Shown here: positions 2,739 to 14,335 of the stretch, piece by piece
Layout: the number at the start of each line of letters is the position of its first letter
Numbering within the stretch: position 1 is the stretch's first letter
From: Chrysochromulina parva
Taxonomy: Eukaryota; Haptophyta; Prymnesiales; Chrysochromulinaceae
DNA: 20,112 bases
NCBI GenBank assembly: GCA_002887195.1
Contig: PJAB01000827.1
Location: forward strand, 1 to 20,112
Direction of reading: 5' to 3'
Position numbers and translations under genes: made by a program
Notes under the pieces: generated by a model
The model's database searches: none
What the model saw: only the letters and a program-made list of their open reading frames with translations
Told to the model about the DNA's origin: nothing

Positions 2739-5732
2739 TCACACCGCCCACAGGTGCAACGCTCGATCATAAAACGAGCACGTCGCTGCGACCATACGCT
2801 CGCCCGTCTCGGCGCCCCTGGAGGTTGCCCCCGCCGCCTCCACCGCCGACCCCCCAGATGGCGGCTGGACGATGGATCCGGCGAGGACGACGCCAAGGAA
2901 CGTGCCCGTGCCCTCGTCACGCAAAGGGGCCACAAACGATACCAGCCAATCTCCGGTGGCTGGGTCAACGTAAGGATCAGTCCAGCGAGCCTCGGCCGTG
3001 ATTGGATCTCCCTCGGCCGAGATTGGATCTCCCTCGGCCGAGATTGGATCTCCCTCGGCCGTGATTGGATCTCGAAAGGCGACGAGCCAGGGCCTCGAGC
3101 GCACGTCCCAGGTGGCGCCGTCCTGAGCGCGCCACTCGTAGATCACGTCGCCCTCCTCACCTGCACTCAGACGCACTCAGACGCAATCACAGACACACTC
3201 GGACGCAATCAGTGGCACTCTGACGCCATCAGACGCAATCACAGAGGCAATCAGACGCCATCAGAGGCCATCAGAGGCCATCAGAGACACTCAGAGGCCA
3301 TCAGAGGCCATCAGACGCAATCAGACGCCATCAGAGTGCTCACCGAGACAGCGCCAGACGCAATCAGACGCAAATCAGACGCAATCAGACGCAATCAGAC
3401 GCAATCAGACGCCATCAGAGTGCTCACCGAGACAGCGCCAGACGCCAGGCTCCCCCACTGTCATCGTCAACGTCGAGCCATATGCGAGCTCGCCTGATGA
3501 GGGAGGCCATCAGAGGGTCATCAGCATGCAATCGTCAACGTCGAGCCATAAGCGAGCTCGCCTGATGAGGGAGGCCATCAGAGGCTCATCAGCATGCAAT
3601 CGTCAACGTCGAGCCATATGCGAGCTCGCCTGATGAGGGAGGCCATCAGAGGGTCATCAGCATGCAATCGTCAACGTCGAGCCATATGCGAGCTCGCCTG
3701 ATGAGGGAGGCCATCAGAGGGTCATCAGCATGCAATCGTCAACGTCGAGCCATATGCGAGCTCGCCTGAGCTCGAGAGGATCTCGCGGTCGATTCCGTAT
3801 GCCGCGTAGTATGTGCCATCGAGCGCTGACGCGACGCCGAGCACCTGATGAGGGAGGCCATCAGAGGGTCATCAGTGTGCAATCAGAGACCATCGAGCGC
3901 TGACGCGACGCCGAGCACTTCGAGTGAGAGAGGGACGTCCCTAAATAGGCAATCACCTTCGAGTGAGAGAGGGACGTCCCTAAATAGGCAATCACCTTCG
4001 AGTGAGAGAGGGACGTCCCTAAATAGGCAAGCAGCGCCGTCGGAATGCATGCACGGATCTTATCGAGCATCGCCTCCCGCCCGTGTGAGAGCGGCTCGGC
4101 TCCAAGACAGTCACGCAGCTTCAAAGCCGCCGACTCACACGCGTGACGCAGCAGCTGTTCAGAGCCATCGGAGGTCATTGCCTTATTAGGAGTGCCGTCG
4201 GAGGTCATTGCCTTATTAGGAGAGCGCCGCCAGTCCGCACCGTATCCGAGGCCGCCCGCGCCCAGCCCGTGGGCCGTGTACTTCGCAATCTGCTCGAGGG
4301 TCACGACGAGATTCTTAGTCACCACCTCCTTCTCCTTCTCCACCTCGTTCACCACCTCGTCCTTCTCCTCCTCCTCCTCCTCCTCCTCCGCCACCACCGC
4401 CCGGAGCACGGCGAATCCCGCATGCATACGCGCTGCTAAGAGGACCCTCGGACGCTCCGGATGCCATCGGAGACGCCACACGCCACCGCCGTCGCCGCCC
4501 TCCTCGGCAAGGGGCGCGCGCAGCTGACGCGTGTCCCACAGGCGGACGGTTTCGTCATAGGAGCCCGTCGCGAGCAGGTGCTCGTGATCGGGACAGGGCG
4601 CGATGCAGCACACCTGATGCAAACGAGCCATCAGAGCCGCAATCAGCATGCAAACGAGCCATCAGAGCCGCAATCAGCAGATGCCCGTGATCGGGGCAGG
4701 GCGCGATGCAATACAGCAGCAGCATGCGCTCGAGACGGCGCTCGTCCAGGTGCGCGCCGAGCTGAGCGCTGCGCTGAGCACTAGCTGGGAGGCGCGCCTG
4801 GCGGCGGTGGAGGCGGAGCGTTTGGGCTGGTGCTCAACACGGCGCTTGAGGGCTGGCGCGAGGCGGCGGCCCTGTGTGGATTTCCAATTGAGTCGCAATC
4901 AATGGCCAATCAATGGCCAATCAATGGCCAATCAATGGCCAGTCGCACCCCGGCCCTATGCGGATTTCCAATTGAGTCGCAATCAATGGCCAATCAATGG
5001 CCAGTCAACGGCCAGCCGCACCCCGGCCCTATGCGATTTGCGGTTGGTCGCCGTCGCCGAGGGTGTTCCACAGCCACCGTCGTCGTCGATGGCAGTGCGT
5101 AGGTCCCAACGCTTGAAGAGGCCGTCGTCTGCGCCCGAGTAGAGCGTGTGCTGATCATGCCATCCGAACGCCACTGCCCAGCCCTCCAGCTCATGCGCCT
5201 GCCACGCCGTAAGCAGCCGAAGACCGCCCTCAGCTAGAGCACCGACGTATACCTTGCCTGCGGTGCTGCTGAGTGCGAGGCGTGTGAAGGGCGTGTCACT
5301 CCATGCGAGGCTCATGCACACGCCCGCGTCCTCGCACGCCATACTTCCGGCGTCCACGAGCTCCGATCCGCGCCCGTTTCCATCCGCGCAGCCAGCGGCG
5401 GCAGCAGCGTCGGCACCGCGCAGCGAGTAGAGATGCGCAGTTCCCGCGGCGGTGGCGAGCGCGAGCACGTGAGGTCCACCAGGCCGAGGGGGTAGCCACG
5501 CGCAGTCCAGGACGCCGGTGCCCTCGATCGCATGGGTCTCGACAAGTGCGTCCGCCGCGGTGGAAAGCAGCGCGAGCCTCCCGATGCGCCCTCCACTCAC
5601 CGTTGATGGATCCGCGTCCGGAGTCAGTTCGTAGCTCCCACAAGCCAGCAGATGCTCGTGCCCCTCGTAGGGGCAGAAGGCAACAACGTCCGCGTTCAGA
5701 GGCGTTCCCTGCGAGGCAAGGGTGGTGGGCAT
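2739..5732 (-). CDS. DPH7: DPH7 (diphthine methyl-esterase, WD40) with a Cache domain inserted near its C-terminus
   Basis: Exons on the minus strand: 5732-5022, 4613-3996, 3844-3766, 3493-3428 and 3160-2739. They make 631 aa with all phases matching. DPH7 (WDR85) removes the methyl ester of diphthine on eEF2 during diphthamide synthesis in the cytosol. Family marks: [22 protein letters not shown] (13-34), AHELEGW and YSGADDG (WD blades), [33 protein letters not shown] (361-365) and the terminal strand [13 protein letters not shown] (617-629). Known DPH7 proteins have a variable loop between YGADW and that last strand. Here the loop is about 250 aa and encodes a Cache sensor: [12 protein letters not shown] (451-462), SRPWL (513-517), [11 protein letters not shown] (551-561), [20 protein letters not shown]. 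Acidic run at 313-320. The ATG at 5732 matches the usual N-terminus. Confidence is high for DPH7 and good for Cache; an artefact or alternative splicing remains possible. Confidence 0.85.
2999..3079 (-). repeat. In-frame 21-bp coding repeat inside the Cache domain
   Basis: Four copies of a 7-residue unit DPI(T/S)AEG lie between SRPWL and WTDPY, at residues about 522-548. In Cache domains these two motifs are normally joined by a short loop, so the repeat lengthens a surface loop next to the ligand pocket. It keeps the frame. Confidence 0.8.
3161..3427 (-). repeat. DPH7 intron 4: 10-11 bp minisatellite with copied exon end
   Basis: Sense words are TGATTGCGTC and TGATGGCCTC. A 50-base block at 3396-3445, which spans the exon-4 end and the donor GTGAGCAC, is repeated at 3312-3361 inside the intron. 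The acceptor GAGTGCAG precedes GTGAGGAGGG, so the intron and the next exon both begin GTGAG. Confidence 0.75.
3494..3765 (-). repeat. DPH7 intron 3: GC-AG intron made of four 68-bp tandem units
   Basis: Left edges of the units are at 3465, 3533, 3601, 3669 and 3737, each 68 bases apart. Each unit begins with a copy of the downstream exon start (GCGAGCTCGCATATGGCTCG, sense) and ends CATCAG. The only splice-like solution is CTCAG|GCGAGC...CATCAG|GCGAGC, a GC-AG intron of exactly 4 x 68 = 272 bases. One copy differs by an a/t change. Confidence 0.8.
3845..3995 (-). repeat. DPH7 intron 2: 39-bp repeats of the exon end plus copied exon start
   Basis: The last 39 bases of exon 2 (from 3996) are repeated at 3957 and 3918. 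Each copy ends CTCGAAG, and the two junctions between adjacent copies read AAG|GTGATTGCC. The copies are followed by a 29-base copy (3890-3918) of the next exon's start (3816-3844). The intron therefore carries duplicates from both flanks and then TGATGACCCTC words. Reading through the 39-base units stays in frame (13 aa each), so retention is possible. Confidence 0.7.
4163..4222 (-). repeat. 30-bp in-frame duplication in DPH7 exon 2
   Basis: It encodes PNKAMTSDG twice (residues about 369-387), immediately after YGADW. The DNA (sense CCTAATAAGGCAATGACCTC) resembles the intron minisatellite vocabulary and could be exonised intron sequence. It marks the left border of the Cache insertion. Confidence 0.65.
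4614..5021 (-). repeat. DPH7 intron 1 with ATTGATTGGCC minisatellite and copied exon edges
   Basis: It joins RKSHRAG to [14 protein letters not shown], as expected in DPH7. A 19-base exon-end word at 5017-5035 recurs at 4944-4962. A diverged copy of the downstream exon start (4576-4611) sits at 4678-4713. The middle (about 4714-4880) is not repetitive and, read on the plus strand, gives a coiled-coil-like open stretch ([18 protein letters not shown]). Confidence 0.7.
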
Positions 5733-7284: not shown

Positions 7285-7626
7285 TCCATGCTCACGCACG
7301 AGAGAGACTAGAGCCCCTGGTCTCTCCACGGTCCGCACTCTCTACGTTCACCAGATTACACCACACACCACACATGACCGGACTCCACGATACAGTACGC
7401 CGGGCCACAACAACGCTGACGAATGTATAATGGTGTAATAGACAAATAGACCAGCAGGGAGTTAGAGGGGAGTGCGAATAGAGCGCCAGTCCGCGAGGCG
7501 GCTCGGCCTTATCCTTTTTTGGGTGCAAGTTGGCGGAAATCACAAACGGTGGCCGTATCCGAGAGTTTGTTGAACATCTTTGAACCCCGGCCAGGCCAGC
7601 CGCCTCAGGAGCTGCGTGCAGTTCAC
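7285..7626 (+). other. Intergenic: 3' end of the TQT gene and promoter of the metalloprotease
   Basis: 342 bases, clearly less GC-rich than the genes around it. It contains aatgtataatggtgtaatag near 7422-7442, with a TATA-like core and a TGTAA that could be a polyadenylation word. No conserved gene was seen; the stretch from 7519 is open in the protease frame but lacks an ATG. Confidence 0.4.
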
Positions 7627-9324
7627 ATGATGCGCGCAGCTCGTTTGCTGCTGGCGATGTGCGCCGTCCCGTGCGCGGGCTGGCGTACGATCACGCAGAC
7701 TAGTTACGGCGGCCAGATCTCGCAAATCCGGCAGCAGATGAGCGGCACTAGTTCCGCGAGCGTGTACCAGCGGCTCGGCTGGATGTGGACGTGGCCCGCA
7801 AGCGCGAGCGACACTACCGGGCTTGGCGGGGGGGTCACGTGGGCGTGGGATCCAGAGCTCTGCGATCTTCTGTTGCCCATCTTCCGCGAGCGCTTCACAA
7901 CCGTCTCCTTCATCGATTGCTCCTGGATCAAGGCCGCCATGCATAGCGCCTTTGATACATGGTCGCAAAACCATCCGTACATCACCTTCCGGGAAGTGAC
8001 CGACATGTGTGAGTCGACAGGTCAATTGCAGCCGGGCACCACTGGCTGCTCACACGCCGAGATCTGGGTGACGAAGAAGAATATGAGCAATCCAACCGTA
8101 TCGGCGGATCAGGCAGCGCGCGCCGGCGCCACGCAGGCGTTTGTCTCGAGCAGCTTTCGGTTCACGAACGGCCAAGCGGCGCGGCAGCAGCTGATCGAGG
8201 TTACTCGGGGCTCCATCCAGTTTGCGTATGAGGAACCCATGTGCTGGTACTTGGACAGTGGCTTTTGCGCCGGCTTCCACCGCTTGAAGCAAAGTTCCTC
8301 GCCGGAAGCGGCCCTTGCAGGCGGCGTTGGGCTGCTGTTCTCCGTTTGGAGCATCGCGATGTTGTCCGTGGCTTATTCGGTAGTTAGGGCCGTCAAGCGC
8401 CAGCTGACAACGATGCTTGAACTCGAAGATCTGGCCGTCTCAGATCTCGACGGCGATGGCAAAGTCGACGCCACTGAGGTCGCACAGCATGTCGTGAAGC
8501 GATCGTACAAGAGGACGCAAGCGTTCCTCAACGCGCTGGCGGAGGAGGCGATCCTGCTGACCGCGCTCAAGTTCACGGTCCTGCTCATCCCGTGGCCCTT
8601 TTACGTGTATGTCTTCCAGGTGTGCTGGGACTGCTACGATTTCGAGGCGGCGGCGGCGCACGAGGTCGGCCATCTCCTCGGCCTCAGCCATCCGGACACG
8701 AAGGACCGGGAGCTGCGTCCTCCATTCACCTCAACCGGACAGAACTCGTACAACGCCCTGCTCGCCGCGGGAAATGTGATGAACTCGTCCACGTGCGGCA
8801 ATCCTTGGGATTACGTACGAGAATGGGATCCAGTGGGGGACCCCGACGCACCCGTGTACCAGGGTGTCCAACTGACGGCCGCAGGAACGCGGATGGCCAT
8901 CATGGAGGCCTTCACGACGCACAACCCATCCGTGTGCCTCTCGCAGGACGACTACGAGGGCCTTCTCACACTCTACCCCGTGTGCGGCAGCGGCATGCCC
9001 CCAGAGCCCACGTGCATCAAGACCAAGGTCAGCATCGGCGCCTTGCGCGTCTCCGTCTTCGTCCTCGCCCCTTTCATCTTCTCTCTGCTCATCGCGATCC
9101 TCGTCCACTGCTGCGTCGAACGCGCGGCCAAGGAACAACTCGATGAGCAGAAGCGTCGTAAATTGGAGAAAAGGAAGGAGGCTAGGGAAGCGAAGCGAAA
9201 GACGAGCTTGGAGGACGGCACGCAAGAGGGCAGTCTAGCGAGGATTGGCTTCTCCGGCGACAAGGTCCTACCAAACAAGGGGTCGCCTGGGCCGCCAGCC
9301 GTCGATCCATTGTATGTTGACTGA
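7627..9324 (+). CDS. Matrixin-like (M10) zinc metalloprotease with TM/EF-hand/TM insertion and C-terminal membrane anchor
   Basis: 565 aa, no introns. The ATG at 7627 is chosen because it gives a signal peptide (MMRAARLLLAMCAVPCAG). Residues 90-150 hold the N-terminal half of a matrixin fold (IKAAMHSAFDTWSQ, ITFREVTDMCE, AEIWVTKKN), followed by CWYLDSGFCAGFH at 206-218. The zinc site HEVGHLLGLSH is at 345-355 and a likely Met-turn (NVMNSS) at 393-398. Between the two halves, residues 227-340 contain a hydrophobic helix (~229-253), an EF-hand loop DLDGDGKVDATE (273-284) and a second hydrophobic helix (~307-331). A third hydrophobic helix at ~469-495 is followed by a basic charged tail (EQKRRKLEKRKEAREAKRK). 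It probably cleaves extracellular or wall proteins; a Ca2+-responsive role for the insert is inference. Many cysteines fit a secreted fold. Confidence 0.85.
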   Translation: MMRAARLLLAMCAVPCAGWRTITQTSYGGQISQIRQQMSGTSSASVYQRLGWMWTWPASASDTTGLGGGVTWAWDPELCDLLLPIFRERFTTVSFIDCSWIKAAMHSAFDTWSQNHPYITFREVTDMCESTGQLQPGTTGCSHAEIWVTKKNMSNPTVSADQAARAGATQAFVSSSFRFTNGQAARQQLIEVTRGSIQFAYEEPMCWYLDSGFCAGFHRLKQSSSPEAALAGGVGLLFSVWSIAMLSVAYSVVRAVKRQLTTMLELEDLAVSDLDGDGKVDATEVAQHVVKRSYKRTQAFLNALAEEAILLTALKFTVLLIPWPFYVYVFQVCWDCYDFEAAAAHEVGHLLGLSHPDTKDRELRPPFTSTGQNSYNALLAAGNVMNSSTCGNPWDYVREWDPVGDPDAPVYQGVQLTAAGTRMAIMEAFTTHNPSVCLSQDDYEGLLTLYPVCGSGMPPEPTCIKTKVSIGALRVSVFVLAPFIFSLLIAILVHCCVERAAKEQLDEQKRRKLEKRKEAREAKRKTSLEDGTQEGSLARIGFSGDKVLPNKGSPGPPAVDPLYVD

Positions 9325-11430: not shown

Positions 11431-14134
11431 TCACGCGCCGTCGCGGGCGCCGTTGGTGAGGGGAGGCGCGGCGGGCGCCAGCGTGCTGAGCGCCGTGGCG
11501 CCGTCGCGGGCGCCGTCGGCGAGGGGAGGCGCGGCGGGCGCCAGCGTGCTGAGCGCCGTGGCGCCGTCGCGGGCGCCGTCGGCGAGGGGAGGCGCGGCGG
11601 GCGCCAGCGTGCTGAGCGCCGTGGTGAGCTGTGCGCGTGCAGAGAGGAGGGGTGATGGAAGGACATACGGCGTCGCCCCATCTCCTCTGCCAAAGTCGGA
11701 GGGCAACGGTCATCAGTTGCAATCAGTGGCAATCGGTGGTCATCAGAGGTCATCAGTGGCAATCACACCTGGCCTCAAGCTGAAGCAGTGCCTCATCCGT
11801 GGCAATCAGTGGCAATCGGTGGTCATCAGAGGTCATCAGTGGCAATCACACCTGGCCTCAAGCTGAAGCAGCGCCTCATCCGTGGCAAGAAAGTCAAGCA
11901 TTGCCGACGGCGTCAGACCGAACTGAGGCGAGAGCTGCGAGGCGAGATCGCTCGAGATCGGTGAGTGCCAATCAGAGCCAATCAGTGGCAATCAGTGGCA
12001 ATCAGAGCCTATCAGAGCCAATCCAAGCCAATCCGAGGCAATCCGTGGCACTCACCTGCGAGGCAAACTCTTGGAGCTCACGCGGCGTCTCGAGCGCGCC
12101 CAGGAAGCTCATCACACCGCTCGCGCTCAGGCACTGCACCGCGTCGTAACGGGCGCTCAGGCAGCCCATATTAGGCAATTGCGTCGAGCTCAGCGCGGAG
12201 GTGGCGCCGTGTTGGGCGCCTGCGCCGGGCGCCTGCCCGGCGAATGAGACGAGATCGAGATCGCTCGAGATCGGTGAGTGCCAGTCAGAGCCAATCAGAG
12301 CCTATCAGAGCCTATCAGAGCCAATCAGAGCCAATCAGAGCCTTTCAGAGCCACTCGGTGGCCCTCACCTGCCCGGAGATCGTGACGAGCTTGAGGTCGG
12401 TCGCGCCCACGGGACGTTTGGTTCGTAGTTTCGATTTGGAGCCGCCGGAGCCTTTGCCTGGGCTGCTGCCGCCACCATCCTCGCCGGCGGCGCTGGCGCT
12501 GGCGCTGGCGTTGGCGCTGGCGTTGGCGTTGGCGTTGGCGTTGGTGCTGCTGCTGCTGCTGCAGGGCGGAGGAGGCGGCATCATGTCCCTCGGCATCATG
12601 TCCCAAGTCGCCGCCGCCACCGCCGCCACCGACGCCGCAGACAGCCCGCTCGCCATCGCACCCCCCTGCGCAGCGCCATGCTGGGCGGTAGCGCCGTGTT
12701 GGGCGACAGCGCCGTGTTGAGCGGACGTCGCCCCGGCACAACGGCTTCGCTTCGCGGCTGGCTCGGGCGCCCGCGACGGCGCTCGACCCGCCGCCGTCGC
12801 CGGCAGCGCCGCGCCCGAGTCCGCGCCGTACTGAGCGCTTGCATGCGCGCCCCCGCGTGCTCCTCGCACGGCTTCCGCAGGCACGCCGGGGTGGATGACG
12901 TCGGGGAATTCGGGCAGCTCTGAGGAGGTCCTCATCACGTCATCAGCGGCGCCGCCGAGCACGTCGGCGAGCGCTGCCGTCATCGGTGAGGCTCCAATCG
13001 AGAGGACATCTCCAATCGAACCGCCGACAGCCGCCGACGAAGCTGACGAAATTGACCAGACGGACGAGATCGACGAGATTGACGAGACTGCGCCCGCTGC
13101 CGGTTTCGTCACTGGCGGCGGTTTCGCGAGGGTGCCGCCATGCTCAGGCGGATACGCGCCCGGGCTCGGCGTCGCACCGATGGCATTCTGCAGCCGGGCG
13201 GTCGCGTCGAGCAGCTCGGCTGGCGTTCGCGCGCGCTGTGAACGAGGGTGTGAACGAGGGACGAGGCGCGTTGGTGAGCATGCAGAGGCGAGGCGGGAGA
13301 GGGCATTCAGACGAGTCCTAAGATGGCACTCGTCCCAAAATGGCACGCGTCCCAGAAAGGCAATCGAGGTCCCACTCACGAGCATGCAATCGAGGGCCCA
13401 CTCACGAGCATGCAATCGAGGGCACACTCACGAGCATGCAATCGAGGGCACACTCACGAGCATGCAATCGAGGGCACACTCACGAGCATGCAAAGCAGCG
13501 CATCCAGACCGCCTTGAGCGACCGCCGAGCGCGGCGCAGAGCCCTCGACGACAGGGAAATCGATGAGCTGCGCGAGCGACGACTGCGGGTTCGTGCGCAG
13601 CAGGTTGTTGATCTTCGCCGCCTCGATGTGCGTCGGCGTGCCCATCGACCTCGACGGCTCCGTGCCCGGAAGCGACGGCAGCCCCTCCGGGAAGCCCTTG
13701 GGTAGCTGGCCGTCCACGAGCATGTGTGCGATGTTCTCGCCGCGGCGGAGCGCCGAGTTCCAATGGTTCTTGACCGCGTTGTCCGTGCGCCCGGGTAGGT
13801 ACTTGGCAATGTCCGCCCACTTGTTGCCAAACTCGTCGTGGAGCTGCATGAGCTTGCGGTCCTCGTCCAGCGACCAGGCGGACTTGTTGATGTCGTGGTC
13901 GAGGTGGTTGTGCCAGCGCTCGCGGCACTGCTTGCCCGTGCGCCCGGGCAGCGACAGCGCCACAGTCGTCCATGCGCGCGTCCCGTGCTGGTGCACGAGG
14001 GCGCGCACGGTGTCGTCCTCGAGCTGGGTCCACTGCTTGCGCTGCGTCCCCGATCCTCGCGCGGAGACTTCTTCGTCGTCCGCATCGATCGAAGCCTCGA
14101 CGATCTGGGCGCTCGAGGATCCCGCGTCGCTCAT
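11431..14134 (-). CDS. R2R3-MYB transcription factor
   Basis: Exons on the minus strand: 14134-13484, 13235-12369, 12232-12056, 11934-11852 and 11686-11431. They give 677 aa with every phase matching. Two MYB repeats lie at about 31-79 and 83-131. The tryptophans are W35, W55, W74 and W87, W106, W125, with recognition helices TGKQCRERWHNHL and TDNAVKNHWNSAL. The first Trp of R3 is kept as Trp, unlike land-plant R2R3 factors, as in animal and protist MYBs. It acts in the nucleus as a sequence-specific DNA-binding regulator (family knowledge). Exon 2 is low complexity (SSISSISSVWS, AQHGA copies, an (NA/SA)n run). Exons 3-4 (ARYDAVQCLSASGVMSFLGAL, LTPSAMLDFLATDEAL) look like a small helical module. 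The C-terminus has a 21-aa repeat. The last junction is the least certain, and a further 3' intron at 11447 is possible. Confidence 0.85.
11435..11623 (-). repeat. 63-bp x 3 coding tandem repeat in MYB C-terminus
   Basis: Units start at 11435, 11498 and 11561, each 63 bases, encoding a 21-residue unit containing ALSTLAPAAPPLADGARDGA. The oldest copy differs by LTNG for LADG. The repeat is in frame, and the end of the preceding sequence also begins TTALSTL. Confidence 0.8.
11687..11851 (-). repeat. MYB intron 4: 83-bp tandem duplication containing the exon 4 end
   Basis: An 83-base block (edges at 11769 and 11852) is present twice. The copy includes the last ~40 bases of exon 4 (CTTCAGCTTGAGGCCAG) and the donor GTGTGATTGCC. 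The true acceptor is likely ACTTTGGCAG at 11687. Sense-strand words TGATGACC and TGATTGCC fill the rest. Confidence 0.7.
11935..12055 (-). repeat. MYB intron 3
   Basis: The exon end GCCTCGCAG is repeated exactly as the acceptor GCCTCGCAG at 11935. The middle is a minisatellite TGATTGGCTC. A 28-base word at 11943-11970 is identical to one in intron 2. Confidence 0.7.
12233..12368 (-). repeat. MYB intron 2
   Basis: The exon end TCCGGGCAG reappears as the acceptor GCCGGGCAG. Between them is a TGATTGGCTC / TGATAGGCTC minisatellite and the 28-base word shared with intron 3 (12256-12283). Confidence 0.65.
12488..12545 (-). repeat. Hexanucleotide coding microsatellite in MYB exon 2
   Basis: A run of ggcgct/ggcgtt on the plus strand encodes alternating Asn/Ala and Ser/Ala on the minus strand, next to a CAG run encoding Ser. 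The frame is kept. Confidence 0.8.
13236..13483 (-). repeat. MYB intron 1 with 26-bp repeats, each carrying a GTGAGT donor
   Basis: Four full units (13380, 13406, 13432, 13458) and one partial repeat the exon end TGCATGCTC followed by GTGAGT. The intron thus has five consensus donors in a row, 26 bases apart. The acceptor is CTCGTTCACAG at 13236, preceded by another CTCGTTCACA. A run of GGGACG(A/C)GTGCCAT words lies between. Confidence 0.75.
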
Positions 14135-14335
14135 CGCGTCACCGTCACGGGAGTGCGCGACCCAATCGGGGTGGCGGAGCCCCTGAAGTCCCTGAACGCC
14201 TCACGGCAACTCAATGAAATCGCAATCAAACAAAGTAACGAAGAAAGAGGAGTCGACGTACGCAAGTGTGACGAGATTCAAGATGCAAGGAGTCATTCAC
14301 ACTTGTGGTGACCGCGATTCCAACGTCCATACACC
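14135..14335. promoter_or_regulatory. Bidirectional promoter region MYB / LRR protein
   Basis: 201 bases between divergent ATG codons. The centre (14205-14260) is distinctly AT-richer (caatgaaatcgcaatcaaac) than the genes, as expected for a shared promoter. No TATA box is evident. Confidence 0.5.

Follow-up and report, generated by a model that had tools for sequence, protein, structure and literature searches.

DPH7 (WDR85, diphthine methylesterase; YBR246W in yeast) demethylates methylated diphthine on eEF2. In double Cache (dCache) domains, it is the first lobe that usually holds the ligand. The accessible part of PMC4822843 describes Cache domains as principally extracellular and as far scarcer in eukaryotes than they are in bacteria; their presence in eukaryotes is put down there to horizontal transfer, and two small Cache families are given as principally intracellular. 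In the available portion of PMC10104139, the amino-acid motif of dCache_1AA consists of R126, W128, Y129, Y144 and D173 (PctA numbering). Enzymes of the diphthamide pathway can carry additional domains, as the accessible text of PMC3585130 reports for lower-eukaryote Dph6 with extra YjgF-YER057c-UK114 domains. Here, we analysed a window of 20,112 nucleotides from Chrysochromulina parva contig PJAB01000827.1, which contains a DPH7 gene that appears to have taken up a Cache module. As with Dph6, to the extent that the available text describes it, a diphthamide-pathway enzyme has an extra domain in some lineages, whereas the enzyme and the domain are different ones. Our overall explanation, which we regard as likely, is that the first-lobe module of a bacterial-type dCache was inserted in the last-blade loop of the only DPH7 detected in this genome, where it likely forms an accessory lobe.

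The predicted gene spans positions 5732-2739 of the minus strand in five exons. Joining 5732-5022, 4613-3996, 3844-3766, 3493-3428 and 3160-2739 gives a protein of 631 amino acids with zero inner stops. Its features are given below, together with their state in P0121, a 225-aa public-metagenome protein that carries the same insert.

5022..5732, minus strand: DPH7 exon 1, encoding aa 1-237 with the first blades of the propeller; ATG at 5732
4614..5021, minus strand: intron 1, GT-AG; contains pieces similar to adjoining exon sequence
3996..4613, minus strand: exon 2 (aa 238-443), with DPH7 blades, YGADW, the repeat linker and the start of the insert in a single open frame
4230..4244, minus strand: YGADW (aa 361-365), the final DPH7 strand preceding the insert
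4164..4222, minus strand: 30-nt tandem repeat forming a 20-aa linker; five units in P0121
3996..4163, minus strand: N-terminal part of the insert (aa 388-443), probably helical (low-confidence helices in the P0121 model)
3845..3995, minus strand: intron 2, GT-AG; absent from P0121
3766..3844, minus strand: exon 3, from the gene model and the P0121 comparison
3494..3765, minus strand: intron 3, GC-AG, with four 68-nt tandem units copying adjoining exon sequence; absent from P0121
3428..3493, minus strand: exon 4, from the gene model and the P0121 comparison
3161..3427, minus strand: intron 4, GT-AG; P0121 continues into sequence resembling its start (GEHSDGL)
2739..3160, minus strand: exon 5, with the Cache C-half and the DPH7 terminal strands in a single open frame including the stop
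2868..3158, minus strand: Cache-like C-half (aa 493-589), with Pfam, PDB and profile matches
2991..3062, minus strand: 21-nt tandem repeats, in frame (aa 525-548), within the Cache-like domain
2742..2792, minus strand: DPH7 terminal strands (aa 615-631)

Both junctions of the insert are exonic and in frame, as each falls inside one open frame. Frame 4661-3861 holds YGADW as well as the start of the insert, and frame 3176-2739 holds the Cache block as well as the DPH7 C-terminal end. The landmarks of the Cache block are RSRPWL (512-517), ARWTDPYVD (549-557) and a last segment at 579-589. A preliminary description of this DNA had proposed a phase-consistent open exon chain that leads from DPH7 into a Cache-like module and back to DPH7, and the 631-aa model with its two junctions in open frames bears this out; the numbering proposed then, with residues 361-631 reaching from YGADW to the C-terminus, agrees with the model. 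Codon-position GC gave no clean separation of exons and introns in this gene.

The N-side junction was also found in P0121 (8 members on 2 contigs, the longest of 8076 bases). This protein runs from YGADWRRS through five 10-residue linker units and then through the insert to GVWRCLG, and it reads straight across the sites of introns 2 and 3, matching the predicted joins. The two inserts are identical at 97 of 105 residues, with 8 mild differences, six of which fall in the N-terminal part, aa 388-443 (50/56 identical). As P0121 reads on into intron-4-like sequence, it seems to represent genomic DNA without introns 2 and 3. It ends before the Cache C-half, and the C-side junction is witnessed by the window only. 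We consider it very likely that the insertion is translated in frame.

Judged by alignment, the predicted 631-aa protein is a DPH7 with a conserved core. It has the WD40 propeller and the terminal strands in common with other DPH7s and keeps all of the columns that are invariant across an alignment of 31 sequences (37/37), among them Y, G, D and W of YGADW and the residues SFY. Because all invariant residues tested are kept, the enzyme is probably active. Its nearest relative, P0001, is identical at 242 of 357 aligned residues, and the match to P0001 over positions 4983-5732 (mainly exon 1) has 67% identity. A protein search at E<=0.001 yielded 244 matches; in the best 120 of these 244, diphthine methyltransferase, methylated diphthine methylhydrolase and DPH7 are the prevailing names, some others being 'hypothetical' or WD40 proteins, and Pleurochrysis carterae is the top named algal match by E-value among the matches listed (43% identical). 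One DPH7 locus was detected when the 45-Mb assembly was searched with P0001, the next-best matches being at the level of generic WD40 proteins (33% at E 6e-8 or weaker). An exon-by-exon search of the genome, in which first-look candidates were scored and short exons may escape, found no further DPH7 copy lacking the insert.

The window protein differs from other DPH7s in its last-blade loop. YGADW and ATCSFYD (617-623) are 251 residues apart, with a Cache-like added part, whereas this spacing is 9-105 residues in other DPH7s (121 other proteins were examined, and both motifs were located in 116). P0001 has a short stretch in place of the insert, and its AlphaFold model (alignment of 31 sequences; mean pLDDT 91.4) contains strands at 337-343 and 353-359 with a loop between them. 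With these strands flanking the short loop, the model indicates that the insert replaces the loop joining two strands of the last propeller blade, which we take to be the a-b loop. The earlier claim that the insertion lies at a point where DPH7 is variable holds, given the range of loop lengths in the 116 relatives. The same insertion in related DPH7s, which was also raised then, was found in part: P0121 carries the N-side join and the insert, whereas the nearest other DPH7s are without it. Across searches of proteins, genomes, metagenomes and viral contigs, the insert was found only in the C. parva genome and in P0121.

The similarity to Cache is located in the C-terminal half of the insert. 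Pfam dCache_1 matched the insert alone at E 3.6e-4 (20.6 bits) and the whole protein at E 2.2e-3 (18 bits), scores that lie below the curated 45-bit gathering cut-off, and MCP-like_PDC_1 matched the insert at E 0.013. The best PDB matches are chemoreceptor sensor domains (3c8c, E 2.8e-4; 5ave and 6iov, E 3.3e-4). With dCache_1/PDC sensors (PF02743, PF22673; PDB 3c8c, 5ave), the insert shares the order and residues of a block opening with D-R-x. A window-independent profile, made from 22 dCache domains that were picked by the Pfam model and not by the window, gave 26.0 bits for the insert with its repeats collapsed and 20.0 bits for the insert as is (hhalign 94.2%). The best shuffle reached 3.8 bits (2000 shuffles, 1246 of which returned a score) and the propeller part of the window protein -1.5 bits. 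On sequence grounds, this second half appears to be Cache, and we hold Cache descent of the insert to be highly probable. The Cache-like module that had been described inside DPH7 is supported for this half; a dCache match was obtained with both Pfam and the independent profile, but under the Pfam cut-off.

Bacterial sequences gave further matches. A cyclase-type Cache profile of 26 domains, with seeds from a search that matched 59 of 249 genomes, scored 13.6 bits for the collapsed insert and 5.6 bits as is. In a prokaryote collection, two of 48 candidate stretches were confirmed, both with WTDPYVDP; by eye, one of these loci reads as a chemoreceptor and the other as a histidine kinase (54% and 55% identity over 39 and 33 residues). 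Another profile, built from 24 bacterial fragments at loci of three prokaryote searches (22/200 genomes matching in the last), reached 58 bits; as these fragments were picked by their likeness to the window, the score is selection-biased, and the window-independent profile is the one we rely on. In the phylum of G001, 395 genomes were searched with a single match, a protein already known from L018. The insert matches positions 113-148 of the 240 in the dCache_1 profile, and in the bacterial cyclase L046 the Cache match is followed by a further stretch that by eye is a second lobe; the insert seems to be the first lobe only of a double Cache. With the Cache region alone as query, a protein search of 7998 candidates gave nothing at E<=10, which crowding by the repeats may explain, and with the repeats collapsed it gave one match, P0121, among 1041 candidates. 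A donor or second Cache gene was not found in the exon-by-exon search of the genome, where PF02743 and PF22673 (E<=10) match the DPH7 locus only (E 0.0138 and 0.242, respectively). Among viral contigs, 49 stretches matched a pattern and none was confirmed as a relative.

The N-terminal half of the insert is collinear with the bacterial Cache-cyclase, with a window segment opposite DGTYIQATNIA and VWRCL opposite TWRFF. This half alone scored -2.4 bits against the cyclase-type profile (best N-half shuffle, 5.8), and no match was returned for it with the window-independent profile of 22 domains. Cache domains have a long N-terminal helix ahead of a PAS-like sheet; AlphaFold modelled P0121 poorly (pLDDT 35.2), with the helices of the N-half at pLDDT near 50. 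The N-half is putatively Cache, by position and collinearity only.

Residues of the ligand pocket were compared by eye with the dCache_1AA motif, PctA itself not being in the alignment. R514, W516 and Y555 of the insert correspond to R126, W128 and Y144, while Leu517 occupies the position of the structural Tyr129 and residues 579-614 contain no Asp for Asp173. The insert does not carry the full motif, as the Y129 and D173 positions are not kept. In addition, a 24-aa run of GDPI(T/S)AE repeats stands directly before the conserved PYVD strand. The loss of the Tyr129 and Asp173 positions together with this run beside PYVD speaks against ordinary amino-acid sensing by the predicted domain; the domain may instead bind a different kind of ligand, contact other proteins or have a structural role. 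Unlike the dCache domains of bacterial chemoreceptors, histidine kinases and cyclases, the insert appears as a first lobe only, without membrane-like helices, and sits in a soluble enzyme with a repeat expansion and changed pocket residues. No membrane-like segment was found by hydropathy (maximum 19-residue Kyte-Doolittle mean of 1.15 in the insert and 1.64 in the whole protein), which departs from the extracytoplasmic, transmembrane-tied setting typical of Cache. The lack of membrane helices is compatible with Cache descent, since two small Cache families are principally intracellular according to the accessible part of PMC4822843.

These observations bear on what the insert may do. As a first dCache lobe with three pocket positions retained, it could bind a cytosolic metabolite and alter DPH7 activity or eEF2 docking, in line with the coupling to a metabolite that the preliminary description had proposed. 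If this were true, translational fidelity in this alga would depend, via a metabolite-gated DPH7, on how much of a cytosolic ligand is present. We think such gating unlikely, as the positions of Y129 and D173 are not kept, a repeat has expanded beside the PYVD strand, and a domain that is principally extracellular, as far as the available text of PMC4822843 goes, is found here without a membrane-like segment. It is similarly doubtful that a bacterial-type sensor lobe, taken up by the last propeller blade, ties the last eEF2 diphthamide steps to a cytosolic ligand that is not one of the standard amino acids. A more modest role is that of a neutral passenger, a drifting insert tolerated by a permissive loop. 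The variable length of this loop in the 116 relatives, the several repeat expansions in and beside the insert and its restriction to C. parva and P0121 are consistent with such drift. However, the insert has kept 97 of 105 residues, with mild changes only, between lineages whose introns and linker repeats are not the same, although these lineages may be close in time. We regard neutrality as a tentative possibility and lean slightly towards some selected function for the insert.

The Cache exons could also be skipped or transcribed separately, as an isoform or nested gene, leaving an ordinary DPH7. We scanned only the GT donors of exon 2 past YGADW against the AG acceptors of exon 5 past the Cache block. 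The GT donor at 4140 (CGC|GTGTGA) is in phase with the acceptor at 2817 (CTCCAG|GGGC), a splice that would shorten the YGADW-to-ATCSFYD spacing to 40 residues, and donors 4134 and 4014 are also in phase with this acceptor. Donors 4140, 4134 and 4014 fit the consensus at 5, 3 and 4 of 9 positions, whereas the four modelled introns fit at 5-7, and the better donor at 4138 (7/9) is out of phase with acceptor 2817. Moreover, a single open exon contains both the Cache C-half and ATCSFYD, and the insert of P0121 is open and in frame with YGADW. Skipping or separate transcription is therefore improbable in our view. An assembly chimera or chance similarity, with no real Cache insertion, is the explanation to which we give the least credence. 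The assembly is fragmented (2199 contigs for 45 Mb) and rich in tandem repeats, and the Pfam cut-off was not reached, but a chimera is rejected by the open frames across both junctions and by the independent P0121, which repeats the N-side junction, and the score of the C-half is well above those of shuffled sequences.

Under the explanation that we prefer, a Cache first-lobe insertion, the module would be translated and would fold into a lobe of its own, attached to a surface loop of the soluble propeller, a fold that we consider likely, and the enzyme core would be left intact. Most likely, the insert would serve as an accessory lobe for interaction or stabilisation and would have lost or changed the classical sensing of amino acids. 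We judge this to be a lineage-specific domain insertion that combines two known parts in a new architecture. The preliminary description knew of no such architecture, and in agreement with this, our literature search, which mostly covered papers available without subscription, found no paper joining 'DPH7' or 'diphthamide' with 'Cache domain'. DPH7 is conserved and soluble and acts on a translation factor, and a Cache lobe inside such an enzyme would be an unusual kind of insertion. A whole domain has been absorbed by a surface loop, with all invariant residues tested still in place. The DPH7 insert would offer a direct test case for ligand regulation of diphthamide synthesis.

The repeats and introns of this gene show features of their own. 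In predicted exons, the tandem units (30 and 21 nt) have lengths divisible by three and the 68-nt unit of intron 3 does not, in favour of our preferred explanation; an 84-nt unit located largely in intron 4 is divisible by three too and counts against it. A 39-nt in-frame unit, present in about three copies at 3918-4030, straddles the border of exon 2 and intron 2. Introns 2 (3845-3995) and 3 (3494-3765) contain tandem copies of adjoining exon sequence with CTGAT-rich units, and they look like recent gains by tandem duplication. The sequence CTGATGAGGGAGGCCATCAG (window 3494-3513) has 162 exact copies in the genome (91 + 71), six of them in PJAB01000827.1, compared with 0 for a reversed control; it is an introner-like repeat.

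Another DPH7, that of Myrmecia bisecta (P0084), has a precomputed annotation of PF01126, presumably heme oxygenase, and is possibly another DPH7 fusion. Elsewhere in the window, a Pfam search of three neighbouring readings gave a matrixin match only, which has no bearing on the DPH7 gene: the reading at 7450-9324 of the plus strand is of a matrixin-type metallopeptidase (Peptidase_M10, E 1.2e-8). By eye, a minus-strand reading at 13454-14200 (TRAWTTVALSLPGRTGKQCRERWHNHL ... KYLPGRTDNAVKNHWNS) is R2R3 MYB-like.
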